Assembly: GCA_016125275.1 (NCBI GenBank)
Contig: WGMB01000004.1
Coordinates: 186,001 to 250,000, forward strand
Length of the DNA: 64,000 nucleotides
Direction of reading: 5' to 3'
Source: Acidobacteriota bacterium
Lineage (GTDB): Bacteria; Acidobacteriota; Terriglobia; Bryobacterales; UBA6623
The translations under genes were made by a program, and so were the position numbers. Below, in pieces: positions 5,549 through 58,266 of the stretch. The notes beneath the pieces were generated by a model that worked only from the letters and a program-made list of their open reading frames with translations, did no database searches and was not told the origin of the DNA. Each line of letters begins with the position of its first letter. Position 1 is the stretch's first letter.

Positions 5549-6565
5549 TTGGCGCTACCGATTTACTACGAACCCGACGGCGACCTGTCGCACTTGAACG
5601 GCAAGACCGTCGCCGTGATTGGCTATGGCAGCCAGGGTCACGCTCATTCGCTCAACCTCAAGGAGAGCGGCGTCGATGTCGTCGTGGGCCTGTATGAGGG
5701 CTCGAAGTCGTGGCCCAAGGCCGAGCAGGCCGGTCTGCGGGTGATGACGACGGCGGACGCCGCCAAGGCCGCCGACCTGGTGATGATTCTGGTCGCCGAC
5801 CACATCCAGGCGGACCTGTACAACGAGCACGTGGCTCCGAACCTGAAGCCCGGCGCGGCGCTGCTGTTTGCGCACGGCTTCAACGTGCACTTCGGCTTCA
5901 TCGATCCCCGCAAGGACATCGATGTGCTGATGGTGGCCCCGAAGGCGCCGGGTCACCGCGTCCGCGAGCTGTTCGAAGAGGGCGTGGGCGTGCCGGGCTT
6001 GCTGGCCGTTGCGCAGGACTCGACCGGCAACGCGAAGAATCTCGGCTTGGCCTACGCCAAGGGCATCGGCTGCCTGAAGGCGGGCGTGATCGAGACGACG
6101 TTCAAGGAAGAGACCGAGACGGATCTGTTCGGCGAGCAGGCGGTGCTGTGCGGCGGGACGGCGGAGCTGATCCGCGCCGGCTTCCAGACGCTGGTCGACG
6201 CCGGGTACGCGCCGGAGATGGCGTACTTCGAGTGCCTGCACGAGCTGAAGCTGATCGTGGACCTGATCTACGAAGGCGGCTTGAACTACATGCGCTACTC
6301 GGTGTCGGACACGGCCGAGTACGGCGACTACACGCGGGGGCCGCGGGTGGTGGACCAGCATGTGCGCGACGCCATGAAGCAGGTGCTCACGGAGATCCAG
6401 ACCGGGCAGTTCGCCAATGAGTGGATGGCCGAGAACCGGGCGGGCCGCCAGAAGTTCCTGGCGACGCGCAAGGCGCAGCAGGATCAGCAGATCGAGGAAG
6501 TGGGCGCGAAGCTCCGCTCGATGATGCCGTTCCTGAAGCGGAAGAAGGAGATGCCGACGGCGTAA
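5549..6565 (+). CDS. ilvC: Ketol-acid reductoisomerase, class I (NADP+)
   Basis: Isomerises and reduces acetolactate or acetohydroxybutyrate to the dihydroxy-acid (Val, Leu, Ile pathways). It is 338 aa, the short class I form. The N-terminal Rossmann motif is [13 protein letters not shown]. The C-terminal knotted helical domain carries the acidic metal ligands (region [14 protein letters not shown] and the later [18 protein letters not shown]). The start is TTG at 5549, supported by AAGGAGA 9 nt upstream. No ATG fits the conserved N-terminus. Third gene of the attenuated ilv run. ilvD and ilvE are not in this window. Confidence 0.97.
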
Positions 6566-6597
6566 GGGCGGTCGGAAGTTGGCCTTTGAGCCCCGGC

Positions 6598-7146
6598 ATG
6601 CGTTCCCTGCGCCTCGATCTGTTGAGCAGCGGACGCATTCCGGGGATCTCGATCGGAGGCGGCGCAGCCTTGGCGGAGGCCGCGGCGCAGTGCCTGACGA
6701 GGGCGGGATTTGCGTCCAGGGCTCCATTCGAGCTCCGCGGCGATATCTCAGCTGAAGAGATCGAGATCGAGATCGAGTTCGAGCCGCCGAGCCTGGCCGT
6801 CGAGCGCTTCTGGGCGGACGAACGGAAAGCGATCGAGTTTGGGGCCGAAGCCGTTGCGGCCCTACTGGTGGAGGAGCTGACTTCGTGGACGATCGCTCGG
6901 CGGTCTCGCATCGGGACAGGGTTCGACCACTGGTTGGTTCCGAAAGGCGGTATGGCCGGCGACCTGTATCAGGAGAGCGCCAAGCTGGAGGTTTCCGGGA
7001 TTTTCGAGGCGGCCGACTCTCGGCTCGGTGCTAGAGTGAGGGCAAAATTGCAGCAGGCGCGGCGCACTCGCTCGGATTTGGTTCTGGTTGCGATGGTCGT
7101 TCGCTTTCGCCCGCCGACTGCGGAGGTTCGCATCGAATGGATCTGA
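6598..7146 (+). CDS. Conserved-type protein of unknown function, first of a gene pair
   Basis: A 182-aa soluble protein with no signal peptide. No family with known activity was recognised. Visible features are an N-terminal LDLLSSGRIPG segment, an acidic EEIEIEIEFEPP run near residue 55, and a central GTGFDHWLVPKG segment followed by AKLEVSGIF. Similar GxDxWL...LEVSGI patterns occur in proteins of unknown function that neighbour small TPR-like proteins (recollection, not searched). It ends by overlapping the next gene by 10 nt, so the two are probably translated together. It begins 32 nt after ilvC, within the amino-acid operon. Confidence 0.6.
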   Translation: MRSLRLDLLSSGRIPGISIGGGAALAEAAAQCLTRAGFASRAPFELRGDISAEEIEIEIEFEPPSLAVERFWADERKAIEFGAEAVAALLVEELTSWTIARRSRIGTGFDHWLVPKGGMAGDLYQESAKLEVSGIFEAADSRLGARVRAKLQQARRTRSDLVLVAMVVRFRPPTAEVRIEWI

Positions 7147-7535
7147 ACCAAATGCACGACAGGGCCATGGACCTTGCAGCGCAGGCGGATCAAGCCGGCT
7201 TTGCGGGGGATGCCAACAAGGCGGCCGAGGCTTTGCGGCAGGCGTATCTGCTGGAGAGGCAGGTCGCCGACTCCATTGCCGACCGGGAGAACTACGAACC
7301 CAGCCGGTCCGTCGTTCACCGTAGCGCGGCTTGGCTGGCGGTGCAGAACGGGCGGTTCCAGGAAGCGATCGAGCTGGCGAGGCGAGGCTTGACGGCCCAT
7401 TCCCCGGCGGCGATCGCCGGCGAGTTGGAAGAGGTCTTGCGCACCGCTCTGTTGGAGGCGGGCCGGGAAGCTGCGGCGGCGTTCGACAAGGAGATCGCCC
7501 CCATGGCTCAGAACGAGCCGGACCGCGCTCTGTAG
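7137..7535 (+). CDS. Small helical TPR-like protein of unknown function, second of a gene pair
   Basis: 132 aa and predominantly alpha-helical. The pattern DQAGFAGDANKAAEALRQAYLLERQVAD followed, about 40 residues later, by AWLAVQNGRFQEAIELARRGL resembles two tetratricopeptide-like helix pairs. No enzyme motif is visible. It overlaps the preceding unknown gene by 10 nt and precedes cimA by about 150 nt. The overlap suggests that the two products act together. No link to Ile/Val synthesis is evident beyond position. Confidence 0.6.
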   Translation: MDLNQMHDRAMDLAAQADQAGFAGDANKAAEALRQAYLLERQVADSIADRENYEPSRSVVHRSAAWLAVQNGRFQEAIELARRGLTAHSPAAIAGELEEVLRTALLEAGREAAAAFDKEIAPMAQNEPDRAL

Positions 7536-7688
7536 CGCCGTCGTTGCCGACAGTGCGCGGCGTGTTCCGGCGGTTGAGCCGTCGGCTCGAGAGGTTTTGC
7601 GAAAGGCGAGGGAGATGGCTCCCGATAGTGCGATGTTTGGATGAGCGGCTCGGAGTCGAGCCGAGTTTTATGGACAGGTGATTCTCAA

Positions 7689-9290
7689 ATGCGAGTAGCA
7701 ATCTACGACACCACCCTCCGCGACGGCACTCAGGGAGAAAACGTCAATTTCTCCGTGGACGACAAGCTGCGCATTGCACGCCGGTTGGATGAGCTCGGGA
7801 TTGACTATATTGAGGGCGGTTGGCCGGGCTCGAACCCGCGCGACCGGGACTTCTTCGCCGCGGCCAAGAGTCTGAAGCTGACGCATGCCAAGATGGCCGC
7901 CTTCGGCTCCACGCGGCACGCCAAGAACAAGGTCGAAGAGGACGAGAACGTCCGGCAGTTGCTCGAGTCCGAGACGCCGGTGGTGACGATCTTCGGCAAG
8001 AGCTGGAATCTGCACACCGAGCGGGCTCTGCGGGTGACCGAGCAGCAGAACCTGGAGATGATCGGCAGCACGGTGGGTTACCTCAAGGCCAACGGCCGTG
8101 AGGTGATCTACGACGCCGAGCACTTCTTCGACGGCTACAAGGGCAGCCGCGAGTTCGCGCTGCGGACGCTGGAAGCCGCGCAGCAGGCCGGCGCCGACGC
8201 GCTGGTGCTGTGCGACACCAACGGCGGCACGCTGCCGGGCGAGCTGGCCGAGATCGTGGCCGATGTGCGCAAGCATTTCGGCGGGATTCTGGGCATCCAC
8301 ACCCACAACGACTCCGAGGTGGCCGTGGCCAACGCGATCGCCGCGGTGGAGCTGGGCTGCTCGCAGGTGCAGGGCACGATCAACGGCTACGGCGAGCGCT
8401 GCGGCAACTCGAACCTGGTGTCGATCATCGCCAACCTGGAGCTGAAGCTCGGCCATACCTGCGTGGGGCCGGACAAGCTGAAGCAGCTCACCAAGCTGGC
8501 GAACTTCGTGGCCGACACGGCGAACTTGGAAGTGGCCAACGGGGCGGCGTTCGTGGGTAAGTCGGCGTTCGCGCACAAGGGCGGCATCCACGTGTCGGCG
8601 GTGCTGCGCGACGCGTCCACCTACGAGCACTGCGAGCCGGAAGCGGTGGGCAATAAGCGGCGGGTGCTGGTGAGCGATCTGTCGGGCCGGGCGAACATCG
8701 TCTTCAAGCTCGAGGAGAAGGGTTGGGCGGAGAAGCTCGATCCGGAGGCGCGCAAGAATCTGCTCGAGCGGATCAAGGAGATGGAGAACGAGGGCTACGA
8801 GCTGGAGGCGGCCGAGGGGTCGTTCGAGCTGCTCGTGCGCGAGGCGCTGCTGCCCGACCACTTCCTGTTCGATCTCGAGAAGATGAGCGTGGTCACCGAG
8901 AAGAAGGGCATGGACCGCACCAGCCACAAGGTGGAGATGGTGGTGAAGACGCGCGAGGGGCAGCGCTGGGCGGAGGAGACCTCCGAGGGCGGGCCGTTCG
9001 ACGCGATGGCGCGGGCGCTGCGCAAGTGCCTGAGCGAGGTCTACCCGCAGGCGCTGGACGTGACGCTGACCGACTACAAGGTGCGCGTGCTGGACGCCTA
9101 CAAAGGCACGGCGGCGAAGGTGCGCGTGCTGGTGACGTGGAAGGACGGCGCCGAGACCTGGACGACGGTCGGGGTGTCCGACGACGTGCTCGAGGCGAGC
9201 TGGAAGGCGCTGGTGGATTCGCTGAAGCTGGAGCTGCTGCGGCTGCGGGATGCGCAGGCCGAGCAGGCGAAGGCCGAAACGGTGGCGTAG
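7689..9290 (+). CDS. cimA: Citramalate synthase
   Basis: Condenses pyruvate and acetyl-CoA to (R)-citramalate, the first step of threonine-independent isoleucine synthesis. LeuCD would act next. It is 533 aa from ATG 7689, where the family begins MRVAIYDTTLRDGTQGEN. The longer frame from 7641 adds unlike residues and is not used. Motifs: DTTLRDG near residue 6, the HTHND metal site around residue 205, HKGGIHVSA around residue 297, and a C-terminal LeuA-allosteric-type domain. Length and the EGGWPGSNPRD motif favour the long CimA type over 2-isopropylmalate synthase. An AGGTGA sequence lies 8 nt before the start. Confidence 0.93.
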   Translation: MRVAIYDTTLRDGTQGENVNFSVDDKLRIARRLDELGIDYIEGGWPGSNPRDRDFFAAAKSLKLTHAKMAAFGSTRHAKNKVEEDENVRQLLESETPVVTIFGKSWNLHTERALRVTEQQNLEMIGSTVGYLKANGREVIYDAEHFFDGYKGSREFALRTLEAAQQAGADALVLCDTNGGTLPGELAEIVADVRKHFGGILGIHTHNDSEVAVANAIAAVELGCSQVQGTINGYGERCGNSNLVSIIANLELKLGHTCVGPDKLKQLTKLANFVADTANLEVANGAAFVGKSAFAHKGGIHVSAVLRDASTYEHCEPEAVGNKRRVLVSDLSGRANIVFKLEEKGWAEKLDPEARKNLLERIKEMENEGYELEAAEGSFELLVREALLPDHFLFDLEKMSVVTEKKGMDRTSHKVEMVVKTREGQRWAEETSEGGPFDAMARALRKCLSEVYPQALDVTLTDYKVRVLDAYKGTAAKVRVLVTWKDGAETWTTVGVSDDVLEASWKALVDSLKLELLRLRDAQAEQAKAETVA

Positions 9291-53193: not shown

Positions 53194-54105
53194 ATGGACT
53201 GGATCGCCTCGATGCCCGGCCCACAGTTTCTGGGCCTCTATTTCGTCGTTATCGCAGCGACTCTGGCGGCCTGCTGGGCCGCACTGCGGACGGTTTCGGG
53301 CGACGGACCCGAGCCGATGGTTCCGGTGAATCCGGACCCCTACCAACTGGCTTGGCTGCGGGGCGGCGACGACGAGGTCGCGCGGCTGGCGATCATCGAT
53401 CTGGCGCGGCGGGGCCTGCTGCACGAGAGTCCCGGCCGGGGGCTGCTGGGCAAGCCGCGGGTGCGCCCGAGCAAGGAGCCCCCGCCGAGGGGCCTGGCGG
53501 CGGGTCCGCGCATGGTGATGGAAGCTTTCAAGCAGCACGATCTGCCGCTGGCAGGGATGCTCAAGCAGGCCGCGTTTCGCGACGCCGTGCGGTCGATCGT
53601 CGATCCGATCGCGGCGCAGTTTGGGGACAGCTTTCTGGTTTCGAGCGCGCAGCGGCTCTACGTCTTCGGTTTCGGCGCGCTGGCGATACTGGGGCTGGGC
53701 GGCTACAAGCTGGTTGTGGCGTTGTCCAAGGGCCGCACGAACGTGGGGTTCCTGTGCCTGTTCGCGCTGATTGGAACGGGCGTGTTGTGGGCCTTGACGC
53801 GGGCGCGACTCAACAGCCGGGGTCGGCTGTACCTGGAGCGGGCCAAGGGCGCCTATCGGGAGCTCGAGACGCGGCCCAAGATGGAGGGAACCGGGCTCCA
53901 GCCGCAGGAGCTGCTGCTGGCGGTGGCTCTGTTCGGGGCGCCGGTGCTGCTGGGCGGTCCGGACATGATGTACGCCTCGATGTTGGGCGAGGACTTGCGG
54001 CGCCGGACCTCCGGCTGGACCGACACGAGCTCGGGCAGCTCTTGCAGCAGCTCTGACAGCGGCGGCGGTTGTGGCGGCGGCTGCGGCGGTTGCGGCGGCG
54101 AATAG
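53194..54105 (+). CDS. TIGR04222-type membrane protein with Cys/Gly/Ser-rich C-terminal tail, putative substrate of the DUF692 enzyme
   Basis: 303 aa. An N-terminal membrane helix at about residues 11-31 is followed by NPDPYQLAWLRGGDDEVARL (residues 46-65), the hallmark of the TIGR04222 domain. Two further helices lie at about 155-177 and 184-203. The tail after residue 279 is low-complexity: Ser-rich, then Gly/Cys-rich, with Cys284, Cys293, Cys297 and Cys300 spaced CGGGCGGC near the end. Such tails are a known feature of this family and have no assigned function. The stop is immediately followed by the DUF692 start. Cys are the usual targets of DUF692 enzymes, so the tail is a candidate modification site (inference). 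Confidence 0.82.
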   Translation: MDWIASMPGPQFLGLYFVVIAATLAACWAALRTVSGDGPEPMVPVNPDPYQLAWLRGGDDEVARLAIIDLARRGLLHESPGRGLLGKPRVRPSKEPPPRGLAAGPRMVMEAFKQHDLPLAGMLKQAAFRDAVRSIVDPIAAQFGDSFLVSSAQRLYVFGFGALAILGLGGYKLVVALSKGRTNVGFLCLFALIGTGVLWALTRARLNSRGRLYLERAKGAYRELETRPKMEGTGLQPQELLLAVALFGAPVLLGGPDMMYASMLGEDLRRRTSGWTDTSSGSSCSSSDSGGGCGGGCGGCGGE

Positions 54106-54954
54106 GTGGAGAGGGCGACGGAGCTTCCGGCGCTGGGCGTCGGCCTGGGGTACCGGCCGGCGCTGCATGGCGGGATCTTTCGCCACCGGCCGAGTCTGGA
54201 TCTGCTGGAGATCACGATCGACCACTACCTGGAGGCGTCGCCGGAGAAGCGGGACGAGCTGGAGCTGCTGAGGGCGCACTTTCCGCTGATTCCGCATGGG
54301 CTGAACCTGTCACTGGGCAGCGCCGAGGGGCTCGACGGCCGCTACCTGGACGCCGTGGCGGCCGTGGTAGAGCGGTTGAATCCGCCGTGGTGGAGCGAGC
54401 ATGTCGCCTTCACCCGCGCCGGCGGCGTGGAGATCGGGCACCTGGCGCCGCTGCCGCGCAGCGAGGAGGCTCTCGATGCGTTGTGCGCCAATATCGCCGT
54501 GGCGCGCCGAGCGATCGCGGCGCCGCTGATCCTCGAGAACATCACCACGACGATGGATCTGCCGGGCGCGGAGATGTCCGAGGCGGAATTTCTGAAGGCC
54601 TTGTGCGAGCGCGCCGATTGCGGGCTGCTGCTCGACGTGACGAACCTGTGGCTCAACGCGACGCGGCTGGGTCTCGACCCGGAAGCGGCGCTCGACGAGC
54701 TGCTGGCGGCCTGCGGAGAGCGCGTGGTGCAGTTGCACTTTGTGGGGCCGGAGCGGCGCGGGCGGGAGTGGACCGACACGCACGGCGGGGCCATGACCGA
54801 GGAGGTCTGGCGGCTGCTCGACAGGACCCTGGCCGGAGCGCCGGTGCGCGCCGCCATCCTGGAGAGGGACCAGGCCTTCCCGCCGTTCGGCGAGTTGCTG
54901 GCCGAGGTCGAGCGCGCCCGCGAGAGCGGCCGCCGCGAGAGGCTATGGGCCTAG
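54106..54954 (+). CDS. DUF692 family multinuclear non-haem iron oxidase (MNIO)
   Basis: 282 aa TIM-barrel protein of the DUF692 family, which includes MbnB (methanobactin), TglH and the bufferin enzymes, Fe-dependent oxidases that modify Cys or nearby residues in ribosomal peptides. Metal-ligand motifs are all present in order: PHGLNLSLG (His), WSEHVAFT (Glu-x-His region), LENITTTM (Glu, Asn), LLLDVTNLWLN (Asp, Asn), QLHFVGPE (His), WTDTHGG (Asp, His) and LERDQAFPPF (Glu). GTG start directly after the upstream stop. Overlaps the next gene by 10 nt. Complete length. Strong assignment; the substrate is inferred from context. Confidence 0.93.
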   Translation: MERATELPALGVGLGYRPALHGGIFRHRPSLDLLEITIDHYLEASPEKRDELELLRAHFPLIPHGLNLSLGSAEGLDGRYLDAVAAVVERLNPPWWSEHVAFTRAGGVEIGHLAPLPRSEEALDALCANIAVARRAIAAPLILENITTTMDLPGAEMSEAEFLKALCERADCGLLLDVTNLWLNATRLGLDPEAALDELLAACGERVVQLHFVGPERRGREWTDTHGGAMTEEVWRLLDRTLAGAPVRAAILERDQAFPPFGELLAEVERARESGRRERLWA

Positions 54955-55436
54955 AGGCGCTGCAGCGAGAGCTGGCGGCGCGGGCGACCGGTCGGCCGGC
55001 GGCGGGCGAGAACCCCGGGTTGCCGCCGGCGGACCAACTGGAGAGCTTTGCGGCGGCGCTGGTCCGCAAGAGAGCCCGGGAGGTGCGGGAGCTGCTGCCG
55101 CGTACGGCGCGCTTACTCGGCGAGCGCTTCGACGGCCTGTTTGGCGAATATGCCGAGGGCCGCCCGACCGAGGGGCCGCAGCGGCACCGGCGGGACGCGG
55201 TCGCCTTCGCCGCCAGCCTACGGGAGCGCGGCCAGGCGGCGGGCGAGACCGCCCGCTATGAGGCTTCGTGGTTGGAGATGGGGCTGGGCAGGCGGGTTCT
55301 GCTGCGAAAGTTTCCGGCCGGGGCGATCGAGGACGGCGCGGACGGGTACGTGGTCGTTTTGTGGTGGCGCGGGCTCAGGGGGAGGGTTCGGGCGCTGCAC
55401 TGGCCGCCGAAGCGGCCCGCGAGCCGGTCGTTGTAG
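54945..55436 (+). CDS. Partner protein of the DUF692 enzyme, BufC/SCO6045-like
   Basis: 163 aa from ATG 54945, overlapping the DUF692 gene by 10 nt. The core segment KRAREVRELLPRTARLLGER followed by FDGLFGEYAEGRPTEGPQRH and DAVAFAASL resembles the helical partners of DUF692 enzymes (DUF2063/BufC type; in actinobacteria the SCO6045-like protein), which bind the precursor peptide. The end is odd: the last dozen codons run into a 30-bp repeat found again at 58106, and the stop codon itself lies in RHS-derived DNA. The natural C-terminus may therefore have been replaced by a rearrangement. Confidence 0.75.
   Translation: MGLEALQRELAARATGRPAAGENPGLPPADQLESFAAALVRKRAREVRELLPRTARLLGERFDGLFGEYAEGRPTEGPQRHRRDAVAFAASLRERGQAAGETARYEASWLEMGLGRRVLLRKFPAGAIEDGADGYVVVLWWRGLRGRVRALHWPPKRPASRSL
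55390..55419. repeat. 30-bp direct repeat, left copy
   Basis: Thirty bases starting GGGCGCTGCACTGG and ending GCGGCCCG are identical to 58106-58135 in the same orientation (36 bases with one mismatch, C versus T). The repeat contains a hairpin GGCCGCcgaaGCGGCC. The two copies bracket a 2.7-kb stretch of RHS and transposase debris. The right end (GAGCC, 55421-55425) is the junction with the RHS fragment. Confidence 0.75.
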
Positions 55437-55500
55437 CAGTGCTGCACCACAAAGCCCCTGGCGTAGACCGCCGCGGGCCGAGAGAGTCGTGGGGCGGAGG
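55422..55500 (-). pseudogene. RHS-repeat protein fragment (duplicate of part of the main RHS remnant)
   Basis: On the - strand it encodes AAVYARGFVVQHCYNDRL, nearly the same as AAVYASGLVEQHCYNDRL in the RHS remnant at about 57.43-57.49 kb. The DNA match is exact over 24 bases (55422-55445 and 57430-57453). It is cut off after NDRL by the junction with the 3' end of the DUF692-partner gene. Microhomology AGCC/GAGCC lies at the join. Confidence 0.7.
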
Positions 55501-55707
55501 AGCCAAAACGGGGACACCCTTGTCTGTTCCAGCGACGGCCGCTTCGAGTGGAGTCTAAGTGATTAATTGGCAATTACTTACAGTGATACTGGCCTGACTG
55601 GGCTACGGAGCTGCCAATGGGTTCGTCGAGTCGTAAGAGGCTTGGACTCAACGGGATACGATCCGCGTGGCTTCGAAATTGAGTCTGTCCCGGTTGCCCC
55701 GGTTGCC

Positions 55708-55791
55708 CCCTAAAACGTCCTGGCGGTTGTTGCCCCGCTGAGTCAGGTGATGCGGTGCGCCGACCGCCACCACCCGCGCCGCTCTCGGCAT
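55708..55791 (-). pseudogene. Stub of a REP-associated tyrosine transposase (RAYT, IS200-like)
   Basis: The - strand from ATG 55791 reads MPRAARVVAVGAPHHLTQRG followed by NNRQDV, the highly conserved N-terminus of RAYT/Y1 transposases (MPR..R....G.PHH.TQRGN.RQ). The metal-ligand HH pair is present, but similarity ends after about 28 codons and the catalytic Tyr region is absent. Remnant only. The surrounding DNA (55501-55899) shows no other gene. Confidence 0.7.
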
Positions 55792-55899
55792 CGTTCGCCG
55801 GCATTCTCGCACATTTCGCAGCCTATTCGGGCTCCGTCCCCGATCTGCCCTCCCGATCTGCCCGCGTCTTAGTTTCAATCCCCCGAACTGCCCGTGGCC

Positions 55900-56349
55900 T
55901 CACTGGCTCTCTAACTGCCTTCGCCTCTCCCTCAAGATTCTGAGGCTTAGGACGCCGCTGAGCGTTCCCAAGGGGACGGCAAAGACCGACAGCCACGAGA
56001 CAGCAAGAGCGAATTGACTGTAGCGATTCAATAAGACAGTGCGGAGCTTCAACAGGATGCTGGAGGCCCCAGCCAACTGAATGGCTATCACGACCAATGC
56101 GATACCCGAGTGGAGAGCCAGATCCATAGAGGGATCTGAGAAAACCCACGGTCCAGTCTCTTTAGAAATGCGGTCGGAGGCGAGCTTGTAAAGCGTCAAA
56201 AGTATCCTATACGGGATAACTAATCCATACAAGAGACCGATTACCAGAAACGCATCGCTAATTGAAATTAGCACGAGTGCTCCTTTTCGCTCGGTCGAAT
56301 TCGAGCCATGCATCACTTTCTTATTCCTCCAGTGCACATTTATTGACAA
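55900..56349 (-). CDS. Membrane protein of unknown function, candidate immunity gene downstream of RHS debris
   Basis: 149 aa with about four hydrophobic segments (ALVLISISDAFLVIGLLYGL near residue 25, SGIALVVIAIQLAGASSILL, then FALAVSWLSVFAVPLGTLSG). Its base composition is clearly more AT-rich than the window average, indicating foreign origin. It lies downstream of the RHS remnant on the same strand, the position where polymorphic-toxin immunity genes sit, so it may be the immunity protein of a membrane-acting toxin. Not matched to any family. Confidence 0.55.
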   Translation of the reverse strand: MSINVHWRNKKVMHGSNSTERKGALVLISISDAFLVIGLLYGLVIPYRILLTLYKLASDRISKETGPWVFSDPSMDLALHSGIALVVIAIQLAGASSILLKLRTVLLNRYSQFALAVSWLSVFAVPLGTLSGVLSLRILRERRRQLESQ

Positions 56350-56382
56350 GAGGCAGTGAGCGATAGCGACATCGATAGGATG

Positions 56383-56600
56383 TTAAACAATTGACCGCGT
56401 ATGCCAAACCCCCCCGGCGAGAGGGCCCTGTAAATTAGTCGGATTTATCCAAATCGGAGTGATGGGAATGAGAGGTACGCCTTCGACTATACTTCCCGTC
56501 GGTCCAGTCTGTGTTCCCACTCTGGTATACGGTGCCTTGGACACAACTAGTGTACATGCCATAGCCAGCACTTGCGGTCGCCCCTGCGATTGTACCGACG
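56383..56600 (-). pseudogene. Unidentified open frame after the RHS core, possible RHS C-terminal tip remnant
   Basis: The - strand frame ending at 56383 reads QGRPQVLAMACTLVVSKAPY and later VPLIPITPIWINPTNLQGPL. It lies between the RHS core and the putative immunity gene and is more AT-rich than the core, as variable toxin tips often are. It is not in frame with the RHS remnant. No toxin family was recognised. Confidence 0.3.
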
Positions 56601-57704
56601 TCATCTGGTAGTAAACTGCTGTCGGATAGTCAGGCTGGCGTTGTGCCTTCCGGCGCCGCTGTCCTCGACGGCACTGCGGGCCGATAGCGTACCGTCGATC
56701 TCCTCCCACAGGGAAAGTAATCCCGGCGCTGCCTGCCCCCCCCGCCGGCATCGGTCACCAAGCGCGTCGAGCCAAGATGATCCGTCGTGCGGAAGTACGT
56801 CCCGGCAGCTTCATACAGCGTCGCCGTCGTGTATTCCGCCGCCAACTTGCCAAAGGCGTCATACACCCACACCGTAGTCTGGCCGTTGTAGATCTTGCGA
56901 ACGCGCTTCCCCGAAAGCGTCATACCGCGTATTCACCGCTACGCCGGTGGCCGTAAACGCCGTCATCTTGTTGTTGGCGTCATACGTCATCGAGCCCGAG
57001 CCCGGCGTGATCTGCGGGTGCGCCGTCATGTTGCCGGCGTTGTCGTAGGCGATGCCGGTCCCGGTCAGCCGGTTCGTCGTCGCCTGGATCGCGGCCGACG
57101 AGGTGGGCGTCGCCATGTGCAGCGTGTGCCCGGTCGCCCCGCTGATCCAGCGGTTGCCGAAGTGGTCGTACCCGTAGGAGCGGCTCCACTGCGTCACCGC
57201 GCTCTTCGTCTCCGTCGCCGAGGCCAGCCGATTCACCGCGTCGTAAGTATAGGTCTGCGTGACCGACCACGGCGAGCCCGAGCCGTTGTCCGGGGCCCAG
57301 ATCGTCGCCATTACGTTGCCATTGTTCGCCGACGCCGACCCAAATCCCAGCGTCAGGTGCAGCTTATCGGTGGACTGGTTGGCGCAGCTCGACTGCCAGG
57401 CCGCCCCCAGGCGCATCACCGTCGGTTGCAGCCGGTCGTTGTAGCAGTGCTGCTCCACCAGGCCGCTGGCGTAAACCGCCGCGTCCAACCCGCCGTGGTC
57501 GGCGTAGTAGCTCTGCGAGATGTAGCTCGATGAAGCCCCGTTCAGCGCGGTTGAGTAGGTCCGCCCGGCGCTGTCGTGGGTGTGATCGATCTTCTTGCCC
57601 GAGGGATACGTCTCGGACTTGAGCGAGCCGTCGCGGTTGTACTCGTATGAAAACGTGTAGCTGTGCGCAGTCCACGGTGAATCCTGGACGATGGTCGTTT
57701 GCGA
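56601..57704 (-). pseudogene. RHS/YD-repeat protein remnant, frameshifted
   Basis: Reading leftward: SYTFSYEYNRDGSLKSETYP, later AAVYASGLVEQHCYNDRLQP, TYTYDAVNRLASATETKSAV, GNMTAHPQITPGSGSMTYDA, then DHLGSTRLVTDAGG and RDYFP, all typical of the RHS core. It is broken: an extra base in the G4 run (56909-56912 on the + strand as CCCC) shifts the frame at YDAFG, and a second shift follows RDYFPCG near 56700. The N-terminal two thirds of a normal RHS protein are missing. The right end at about 57.7 kb abuts another broken gene. Confidence 0.8.
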
Positions 57705-58031: not shown

Positions 58032-58199
58032 ATGTCCTTCGACTACGAGAAAGCGATTGTGGATCTGAAGGCGCAGATGACTCAGGGGCCCAAAGAGGCG
58101 GACCGGGGCGCTGCACTGGCCGCCGAAGCGGCCCGTGAGCCCATCCGTCAGAAACCCGCCTTGTTAGGGGAGAGTGTTGGTGCGCAAGAGAGGACTTGA
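58032..58199 (+). pseudogene. Short ORF reading into tRNA-Leu, probably a truncated gene
   Basis: 55 codons from ATG 58032, with GAGAAGGG about 9 nt upstream. The product begins MSFDYEKAIVDLKAQMTQGP and contains GAALAAEAAREP, encoded by the 30-bp repeat. The frame stops inside the oppositely oriented tRNA-Leu gene, so the natural 3' end has been lost. No family recognised. Confidence 0.4.
58106..58135. repeat. 30-bp direct repeat, right copy
   Basis: Identical to 55390-55419, same orientation, including the GGCCGCcgaaGCGGCC hairpin. It lies inside the short ORF at 58032 and 43 bp from the 3' end of tRNA-Leu. Confidence 0.75.
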
Positions 58200-58266
58200 A
58201 CCTCCACGGGAGTTAAATCCCACTAGGACCTGAACCTAGCGCGTCTGCCAATTCCGCCACTTGCGC
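58178..58266 (-). tRNA. tRNA-Leu (anticodon CAG)
   Basis: Read on the - strand it folds as a class II tRNA: acceptor GCGCAAG pairs with CTTGCGC, the D-arm region is GGCGGAATTGGCAGACGC, the anticodon stem CTAGG/CCTAG carries loop TTCAGGT (anticodon CAG, for CTG codons), a long variable arm follows, the T-loop is GTTCAAGTC, and CCA is encoded. Length is 89 nt. CTG is a very common Leu codon in this GC-rich genome. Confidence 0.95.

Follow-up and report, generated by a model that had tools for sequence, protein, structure and literature searches.

A cysteine-tailed TIGR04222 membrane protein, an MNIO enzyme and a TglI-like partner encoded side by side in an acidobacterial genome, and a candidate recognition domain at related loci

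Membrane proteins of the TIGR04222 family adjoin genes for MNIO enzymes, and their Ser/Gly-rich, Cys-bearing C-termini have been described as putative substrates (Antoine et al. 2025; PMC12452194). In the sections of that paper on which we draw here, PME-type 2 partners are found in at least 10% of the TIGR04222 clusters. PME-type 2 proteins are related to NGO1945 and TglI, have no Pfam match to DUF2063 and carry a short C-terminal beta domain. Many TIGR04222-MNIO clusters are described as apparently having no partner gene, and tiny "adjamnio-V" proteins without homology are reported. The association with the enzyme is loose, 490 of 1372 genomes being without an MNIO. The TIGR04222 protein is said to have no signal peptide, and its tail is placed in the periplasm from AlphaFold2 models and predicted topology (PMC12452194). 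Here we consider a three-gene locus from an Acidobacteriota bacterium, located in a stretch of 64,000 nucleotides (assembly GCA_016125275.1, contig WGMB01000004.1, positions 186,001 to 250,000 of the forward strand) that we call the window. The locus is a member of the published TIGR04222-MNIO-PME-type 2 class.

How does the window locus compare with the clusters already described? Gene order, protein families, the Ser/Gly/Cys tail and the proposal that the tail is the substrate are the same here as in the parts of PMC12452194 that treat these clusters. An earlier note on this DNA had held the substrate to be unlike the precursors described so far; that claim has to be given up, because the class is described in that paper, and the novelty of the substrate type falls with it. 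The two accounts differ in that the tail is periplasmic there, whereas we favor the cytoplasm, and in that a small Os1348-like domain is found here at 47 of 52 MNIOs. What we add to the published description is this small module, a one-way relation between the enzyme and the Cys tail, a partner that in its predicted structure resembles TglI, NGO1945 and MbnC, which would be new for this class of loci, and a case for cytoplasmic topology. No open-licence PMC paper combining MNIO with membrane-anchored and cysteine-rich was found.

The first gene product (open reading frame, ORF, 1) scores 88.1 bits against TIGR04222 of NCBIfam, for which the curated cut-off is 43, and is thus a family member. 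Cys residues are found at positions 27, 188, 284, 293, 297 and 300, and the last four sit in a C-terminal Ser/Gly/Cys tail of about residues 273-303, "SSCSSSDSGGGCGGGCGGCGGE". In relatives of ORF1 a GGGCGGCG-like motif is found at most of the tail ends. ORF2 scores 256 bits against PF05114 (gathering score 25), which makes it an MNIO/DUF692 protein. In its alignment with TglH, MbnB and 3bww, a DUF692 structure, each of the nine iron ligands of TglH (H71, H107, E151, D184, N187, H216, D229, H231 and E258, as given in the portion of PMC10880893 used here) is conserved, as H64, H99, E144, D177, N180, H211, D224, H226 and E253. There are no gaps between the three genes and all frames are open. The GTG start of ORF2 lies immediately 3' of the ORF1 stop codon and the ATG of ORF3 lies within the end of ORF2, with 10 bases shared; the three-gene operon is probably translationally coupled. 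In profile searches of the source genome, TIGR04222 and PF05114 gave one match each. The earlier note had read the locus in the same way on these points: three genes abutting or overlapping, a TIGR04222 protein whose tail carries Cys284, 293, 297 and 300, and a complete DUF692 enzyme with all of its metal-ligand motifs.

The third gene product is less easily placed. A search of NCBIfam to E 0.1 and of Pfam to E 1 assigned ORF3 to no family, and by Pfam it is not a DUF2063 protein of the PME-type 1, or BufC, kind; the published label for such partners is PME-type 2, and ORF3 fits it in lying directly downstream of the MNIO gene, in lacking the DUF2063 match and in its modeled NGO1945/TglI-related fold. 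The protein consists of a shortened N-terminal Os1348-like module, DUF2063/TglI-like helices and a short beta domain. An iterated search from ORF3 gave 38 matches, duplicates included, in related loci, and the alignment holds 26 other distinct homologous ORFs, two of which are pieces of one gene. The AlphaFold2 model of ORF3 has a mean confidence (pLDDT) of 88.6. With this model Foldseek placed NGO1945 (3dee) first (E 0.0074, probability 1.00) and gave nothing at E <= 0.001. VIA-align gave TglI twice (Z 9.9, root-mean-square deviation [rmsd] 7.3, 158 residues aligned; Z 9.7, rmsd 4.3, 150 aligned), then NGO1945 3dee (Z 9.0, rmsd 3.3, 122 aligned) and MbnC twice (Z 5.7 and 4.7), followed by an unrelated chain at Z 4.3; for helical bundles, Z values below about 13 may be unspecific. 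With NGO1945 first in Foldseek and TglI, NGO1945 and MbnC in the five top rows of VIA-align, the model points to ORF3 being most likely an MNIO partner of the TglI/MbnC type with a short C-terminal beta domain. The description of ORF3 in the earlier note as a DUF2063/BufC-like helical partner thus survives for the fold, as modeled, and fails for the DUF2063 assignment. Truncation of ORF3 by the repeats that lie at its end was considered and dismissed, because the conserved core aligns almost to the end of the protein; the last 15 or so codons are still repeat-derived. At a related locus, L112, the partner gene is broken into two ORFs (8413-8973), through mutation or sequencing error. Sequence searches of the PDB with the partner and with a TIGR04222 profile (A1) gave no credible match, the A1 match to a linker construct (E 0.0017) being dismissed as its alignment falls on the low-complexity tail.

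Two other MNIO systems are instructive here. The TglHI pair (3-thiaglutamate) has the same nine ligand positions as ORF2 and a partner of similar fold, by the Z values just given; it acts on a peptide, TglA, that has a single Cys at its C-terminus, whereas the candidate here is a membrane protein whose tail holds several Cys. The bufferin system (BufB/BufC) has the MNIO family and a Cys-rich putative substrate in common with the window locus, and BufB is the nearest NCBIfam enzyme model. ORF2, however, scores 212.7 bits against BufB (NF050167), under the cut-off of 310, and is not a BufB by that model; the putative substrate is a TIGR04222 protein, and the partner, unlike that of the bufferin system, is not DUF2063 by Pfam.

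Is the association of the genes conserved? Among 396 Acidobacteriota genomes sampled, 19 have a protein over the TIGR04222 cut-off, and in 15 of the 19, the window counted, an MNIO gene lies directly downstream on the same strand. A chance neighborhood is ruled out by this linkage, and the co-occurrence of TIGR04222 with DUF692 that the earlier note proposed to look for is borne out. In three other phyla the cut-off was passed by 11 of 244 genomes centered on a cyanobacterium, 12 of 294 centered on a planctomycete and 6 of 240 centered on the genome of locus L092, presumed to be a member of the Verrucomicrobiota (centers counted); Actinomycetota, the source of most reported TIGR04222 proteins, lay outside the sampling. 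Tail Cys were compared for 46 proteins. The set omits the window, the center genomes (G454, G455 and G457), sub-cut-off hits and a contig-end fragment (G919:C243), and retains the partial domains of G144 and G786, the latter seemingly broken and counted as Cys-poor, and G711 on a 3.8-kb contig. At least four Cys within the last 60 residues are found in 24 of 24 proteins with an adjacent MNIO (5 to 9 Cys) and in 16 of 22 without one (4 to 11 Cys), for which Fisher's p is 0.008 with the proteins taken as independent, though G123 and G165 share identical tails. For three of these 16 the genome encodes an MNIO at another location, in one case a divergent one. In this sample, then, the enzyme implies a Cys tail, and a Cys tail does not imply the enzyme. 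A two-way rule, by which Cys content would track the enzyme as the earlier note suggested, is ruled out by the 16 MNIO-less proteins; the half of it that runs from enzyme to tail is upheld. The tails also differ in composition, in that Ser precedes 79 of 163 tail Cys with an MNIO and 9 of 89 without. Taken per protein in a phylum-stratified permutation the difference has p 0.012; the comparison is post hoc, and the L092 phylum has no MNIO-linked protein.

Other variations on the TIGR04222 gene were seen. At L094 (5932-8060), L111 (5908-8054) and L091 (5869-7718) a tandem TIGR04222 pair precedes one MNIO gene, with a Cys tail on both members. At L043 (genome G144), a 916-residue protein with weak TIGR04222 similarity has terminal repeats of a CHSA unit and 11 tail Cys, in a genome without an MNIO match. 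The MNIO-free TIGR04222 proteins of L178, L179, L181, L194, L195, L210, L120 and L038 are extended N-terminally by some 200 residues, in which a D(Q/K)(A/V)WHLHL...YW-like motif is conserved; for this extension a Pfam scan of the L178, L194 and L038 proteins gave no match.

Loci that seem to have no partner raise the question of how their enzymes are served. At such loci an ORF of 67 to about 100 residues follows closely on the MNIO gene. It contains a small domain of about 60 residues whose best family is NF038399 of NCBIfam, the Os1348 family of the NHLP clan (best E 3.8e-10). At E <= 1e-3 this family is matched by 10 of 11 short proteins and 15 of 20 long partners, the window counted among the latter; the ten proteins with scores shown are all under the curated cut-off of 40 bits. 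A hidden Markov model (HMM) built without iteration from five of the short proteins also matches the N-termini of the long partners (E <= 1.1e-6), that of the window excepted. The TIGR04222 loci, which come from HMM sampling and partly from a search with an alignment of Cys-tailed proteins, yield 52 distinct MNIO ORFs. Of these, 20 have the short version, 24 a long partner, 4 a fusion and 3 none, and 1 is at a contig end; in this tally L112, counted as short, is a split long partner, and the window is counted among the long partners though the HMM misses its module. By HMM the small domain is detected at 47 of the 52: at 38 it overlaps the MNIO, lies within 60 bases of it or is fused to it, at a further 3 it is no more than 250 bases away, and at 6 the distance is 434 to 1393 bases; the start codons of the overlapping small ORFs are inferred. 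In the fused form, at L087, L029, L197 and L200, the domain is joined to the C-terminus of the MNIO, and it is partial or weak in L029 and L197.

At these loci the domain and the enzyme co-occur. The HMM found no match in 29 MNIO-free TIGR04222 loci (2,212 ORFs) and one in five further such loci, for a total of 1 in 34, a set in which L097 and L192 are the same locus, L044 and L045 are below the cut-off and several are short or truncated at contig ends. The single match, L108, has a TIGR04222 gene without a Cys tail that runs straight into a partner gene with the small domain (5983-7672), with no MNIO in the 12.7-kb locus; it looks like a deletion that took the tail end and the MNIO gene together. 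From the fusions it can be argued that the small domain works with the enzyme. The Os1348/NHLP clan is known as a family of precursors of ribosomally synthesized and post-translationally modified peptides (NF038399; PMC7726476, as far as the part of it used here goes), and it is the best match of the stand-alone proteins and of the long-partner N-termini. In contrast to those precursors, the domain scores below the cut-off where scores are shown, has no Cys core, and forms a partner module or an enzyme fusion. The ends of the stand-alone proteins are variable and mostly basic. Of the 20 such proteins, 13 are free of Cys and the others have 1-2, none of them conserved; in the fusions 4 to about 20 residues extend beyond the domain. 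With so few Cys and no conserved core, the small proteins are unlikely to be precursors. Their sequences suggest instead a recognition element supplied in trans. The words Os1348, Nif11 and NHLP are absent from PMC12452194, and the titles and abstract openings listed from searches of open-licence PMC papers gave no link between Os1348-like domains and TIGR04222-MNIO loci.

On which side of the membrane does the tail lie? The AlphaFold2 model of ORF1 (pLDDT 86.7, with most of the tail below 50) has only three long transmembrane (TM) helices, at about residues 9-34, 153-178 and 185-202. By hhalign the C-terminal membrane domain is that of DUF2207 (PF20990), with a probability of 96.6 and E 6.1e-10 over 197 columns for the TIGR04222 profiles. 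Of four relatives that were scanned, two match PF20990 directly, with E 1.7e-4 and 6.1e-4 and scores under its cut-off, and the Pfam scan of window ORF1 gave no match to it. A Gly-rich tail is found in both families; DUF2207 proteins differ in having a large N-terminal domain ahead of TM1 and, in the four examined, no tail Cys. Among 55 TIGR04222 representatives of less than 50% identity, K+R per 15 residues is 2.78 after TM1 and 0.42 before it. It is higher after TM1 in 52, lower in none and equal in 3, L204, without its N-terminus, being counted as equal. This bias argues that the large domain between TM1 and TM2 is inside. On the charge bias, the DUF2207 homology and the AlphaFold2 model we favor a cytoplasmic tail, contrary to the periplasmic placement in the cited sections of PMC12452194. 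Foldseek with the TIGR04222 model gave no match at E <= 0.001, so that no solved relative backs this topology. The surface-displayed tail of the earlier note is not supported, the same three lines of evidence favoring the cytoplasm, not conclusively.

These observations are consistent with the following account, which as a whole we consider moderately probable. The MNIO and its partner would form a cytoplasmic iron holoenzyme with the architecture of TglHI and MbnBC, and this enzyme would modify, by oxidation, Cys residues in the Ser/Gly/Cys tail at the C-terminus of the TIGR04222 protein. TM1 would run from outside to inside, leaving in the cytoplasm the soluble domain that connects it to TM2; TM2 and TM3 would form a hairpin, the hydrophobic stretch before the tail would not span the membrane, and the tail would most likely stay on the cytoplasmic face, where it might serve in metal binding at the membrane. 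That the tail is the likely substrate and the helical protein the partner of the enzyme had been proposed in the earlier note, and the linkage, the partner fold and the 24 Cys-rich tails lend support to both. How would the enzyme find such a tail? The substrate has no evident leader, and for this reason we propose recognition in trans, which in relatives the Os1348/NHLP-like domain probably supplies. The stronger form of this proposal, in which the domain, whether a protein of its own, part of the enzyme or the N-terminal portion of a partner resembling TglI, replaces recognition of a precursor leader and lets the enzyme modify in place the C-terminal, cytoplasmic tail of an integral membrane protein, is offered tentatively, as a possibility that we would not yet call likely.

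Several observations weigh against this account, among them the low VIA-align Z values and sub-cut-off NF038399 scores given above, and they find their place in the alternatives. The same enzyme and substrate might operate with the tail outside the cytoplasmic membrane; modification would then precede or accompany insertion, and export would follow, as for bufferins. This is the placement stated, from AlphaFold2 models and predicted topology, in PMC12452194, in the sections used here, and we regard it as possible but doubtful. The hydrophobicity of the stretch before the tail leaves room for it: this stretch is borderline, with KD19 of 1.76 at residues 238-256 of ORF1 and of at least 1.6 in 30 of the 55 representatives (53 for TM1, 53 for TM2 and 55 for TM3), and the TM2-TM3 loop is K/R-rich too (2.38 per 12 residues). 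Yet the charge bias puts the large domain inside in 52 of 55, opposite to the large periplasmic domain of that paper, the stretch appears in the model only as helices of 11 (237-247) and 4 (249-252) residues, and the corresponding helix of DUF2207 has a lower hydrophobicity, with KD19 of 0.25-1.23 across four proteins. It is rather unlikely, in our estimation, that the tail has a thiol or metal-binding function of its own, the MNIO acting elsewhere or on some tails only. The Cys-rich tails without an adjacent MNIO speak for this, above all the 13 of 16 in genomes where no MNIO was detected (completeness is not given for most of these assemblies), which argue that the tail has or had a role independent of the enzyme. 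The Ser-Cys signature has exceptions as well, since two of six MNIO-linked planctomycete tails are without Ser-Cys and the MNIO-free acidobacterial G062 has it. Such a tail is harder to reconcile with the presence of Cys in all 24 sampled MNIO-linked proteins, with the more frequent placement of their Cys after Ser, and with the joint absence of MNIO and Cys tail at L108.

Might the window copy be in decay, the system being real in relatives and no longer working here? The partner is without most of its Os1348-like module, about 20 residues being gone from the alignment, and has no NF038399 match, so that it is not a member of that family by score; its last codons lie in repeats; and the four tail Cys are the fewest among MNIO-linked tails, a place shared with L090. 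The locus may indeed be a reduced or decaying copy, its frames and ligands intact, but loss of function we think unlikely given the three open frames, the nine iron ligands and the confidently modeled partner. The least probable alternative, which we consider very improbable, makes the small Os1348-like protein the true precursor and the TIGR04222 protein only an anchor or exporter. Its appeal lies in the name of the clan that the small proteins and long-partner N-termini match best; against it are the missing core, with hardly any Cys in the stand-alone forms and only short extensions in the fusions, and the TglI-like fold that follows in the window's long partner.

The features of the locus are collected in Table 1. 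The end of ORF3 shares repeats of 36 and 54 bases (91-97% identity) with positions 57430-57483 and 58106-58141 of the window. The reading frames in this region, at 55390-57490, resemble what we take to be remains of an Rhs-type gene. A tRNA gene at 58181-58266 on the minus strand is the sole Rfam match of the window at the gathering threshold. No match to the TIGR04222 protein was found among plasmids.

Table 1. Features of the TIGR04222-MNIO-partner locus, in window coordinates
Feature	Position	Strand	Size and basis
TIGR04222 (DUF2207_C-like) membrane protein, putative substrate (ORF1)	53194..54105	+	303 aa; NCBIfam, hhalign, AlphaFold2
Low-complexity Cys tail codons (G281-E303)	54034..54102	+	sequence
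MNIO (DUF692, PF05114) enzyme (ORF2)	54106..54954	+	282 aa; PF05114, iron ligands aligned to TglH
MNIO partner, PME-type 2 kind (ORF3)	54945..55436	+	163 aa; homologous ORFs, AlphaFold2, VIA-align, Foldseek
Repeat-shared sequence including the partner's last ~15 codons and stop	55390..55475	+	repeat search

What would such a system mean for the MNIO family? If the tail is modified, MNIO chemistry extends beyond peptides to full-length integral membrane proteins. The small domain is a concrete candidate for the partner that was found missing in many TIGR04222-MNIO clusters in the parts of PMC12452194 considered here. Tail modification, the small domain and topology are all testable in E. coli. 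The topology that we favor also shifts the possible product, from a surface site to a membrane-bound intracellular metal or redox site.

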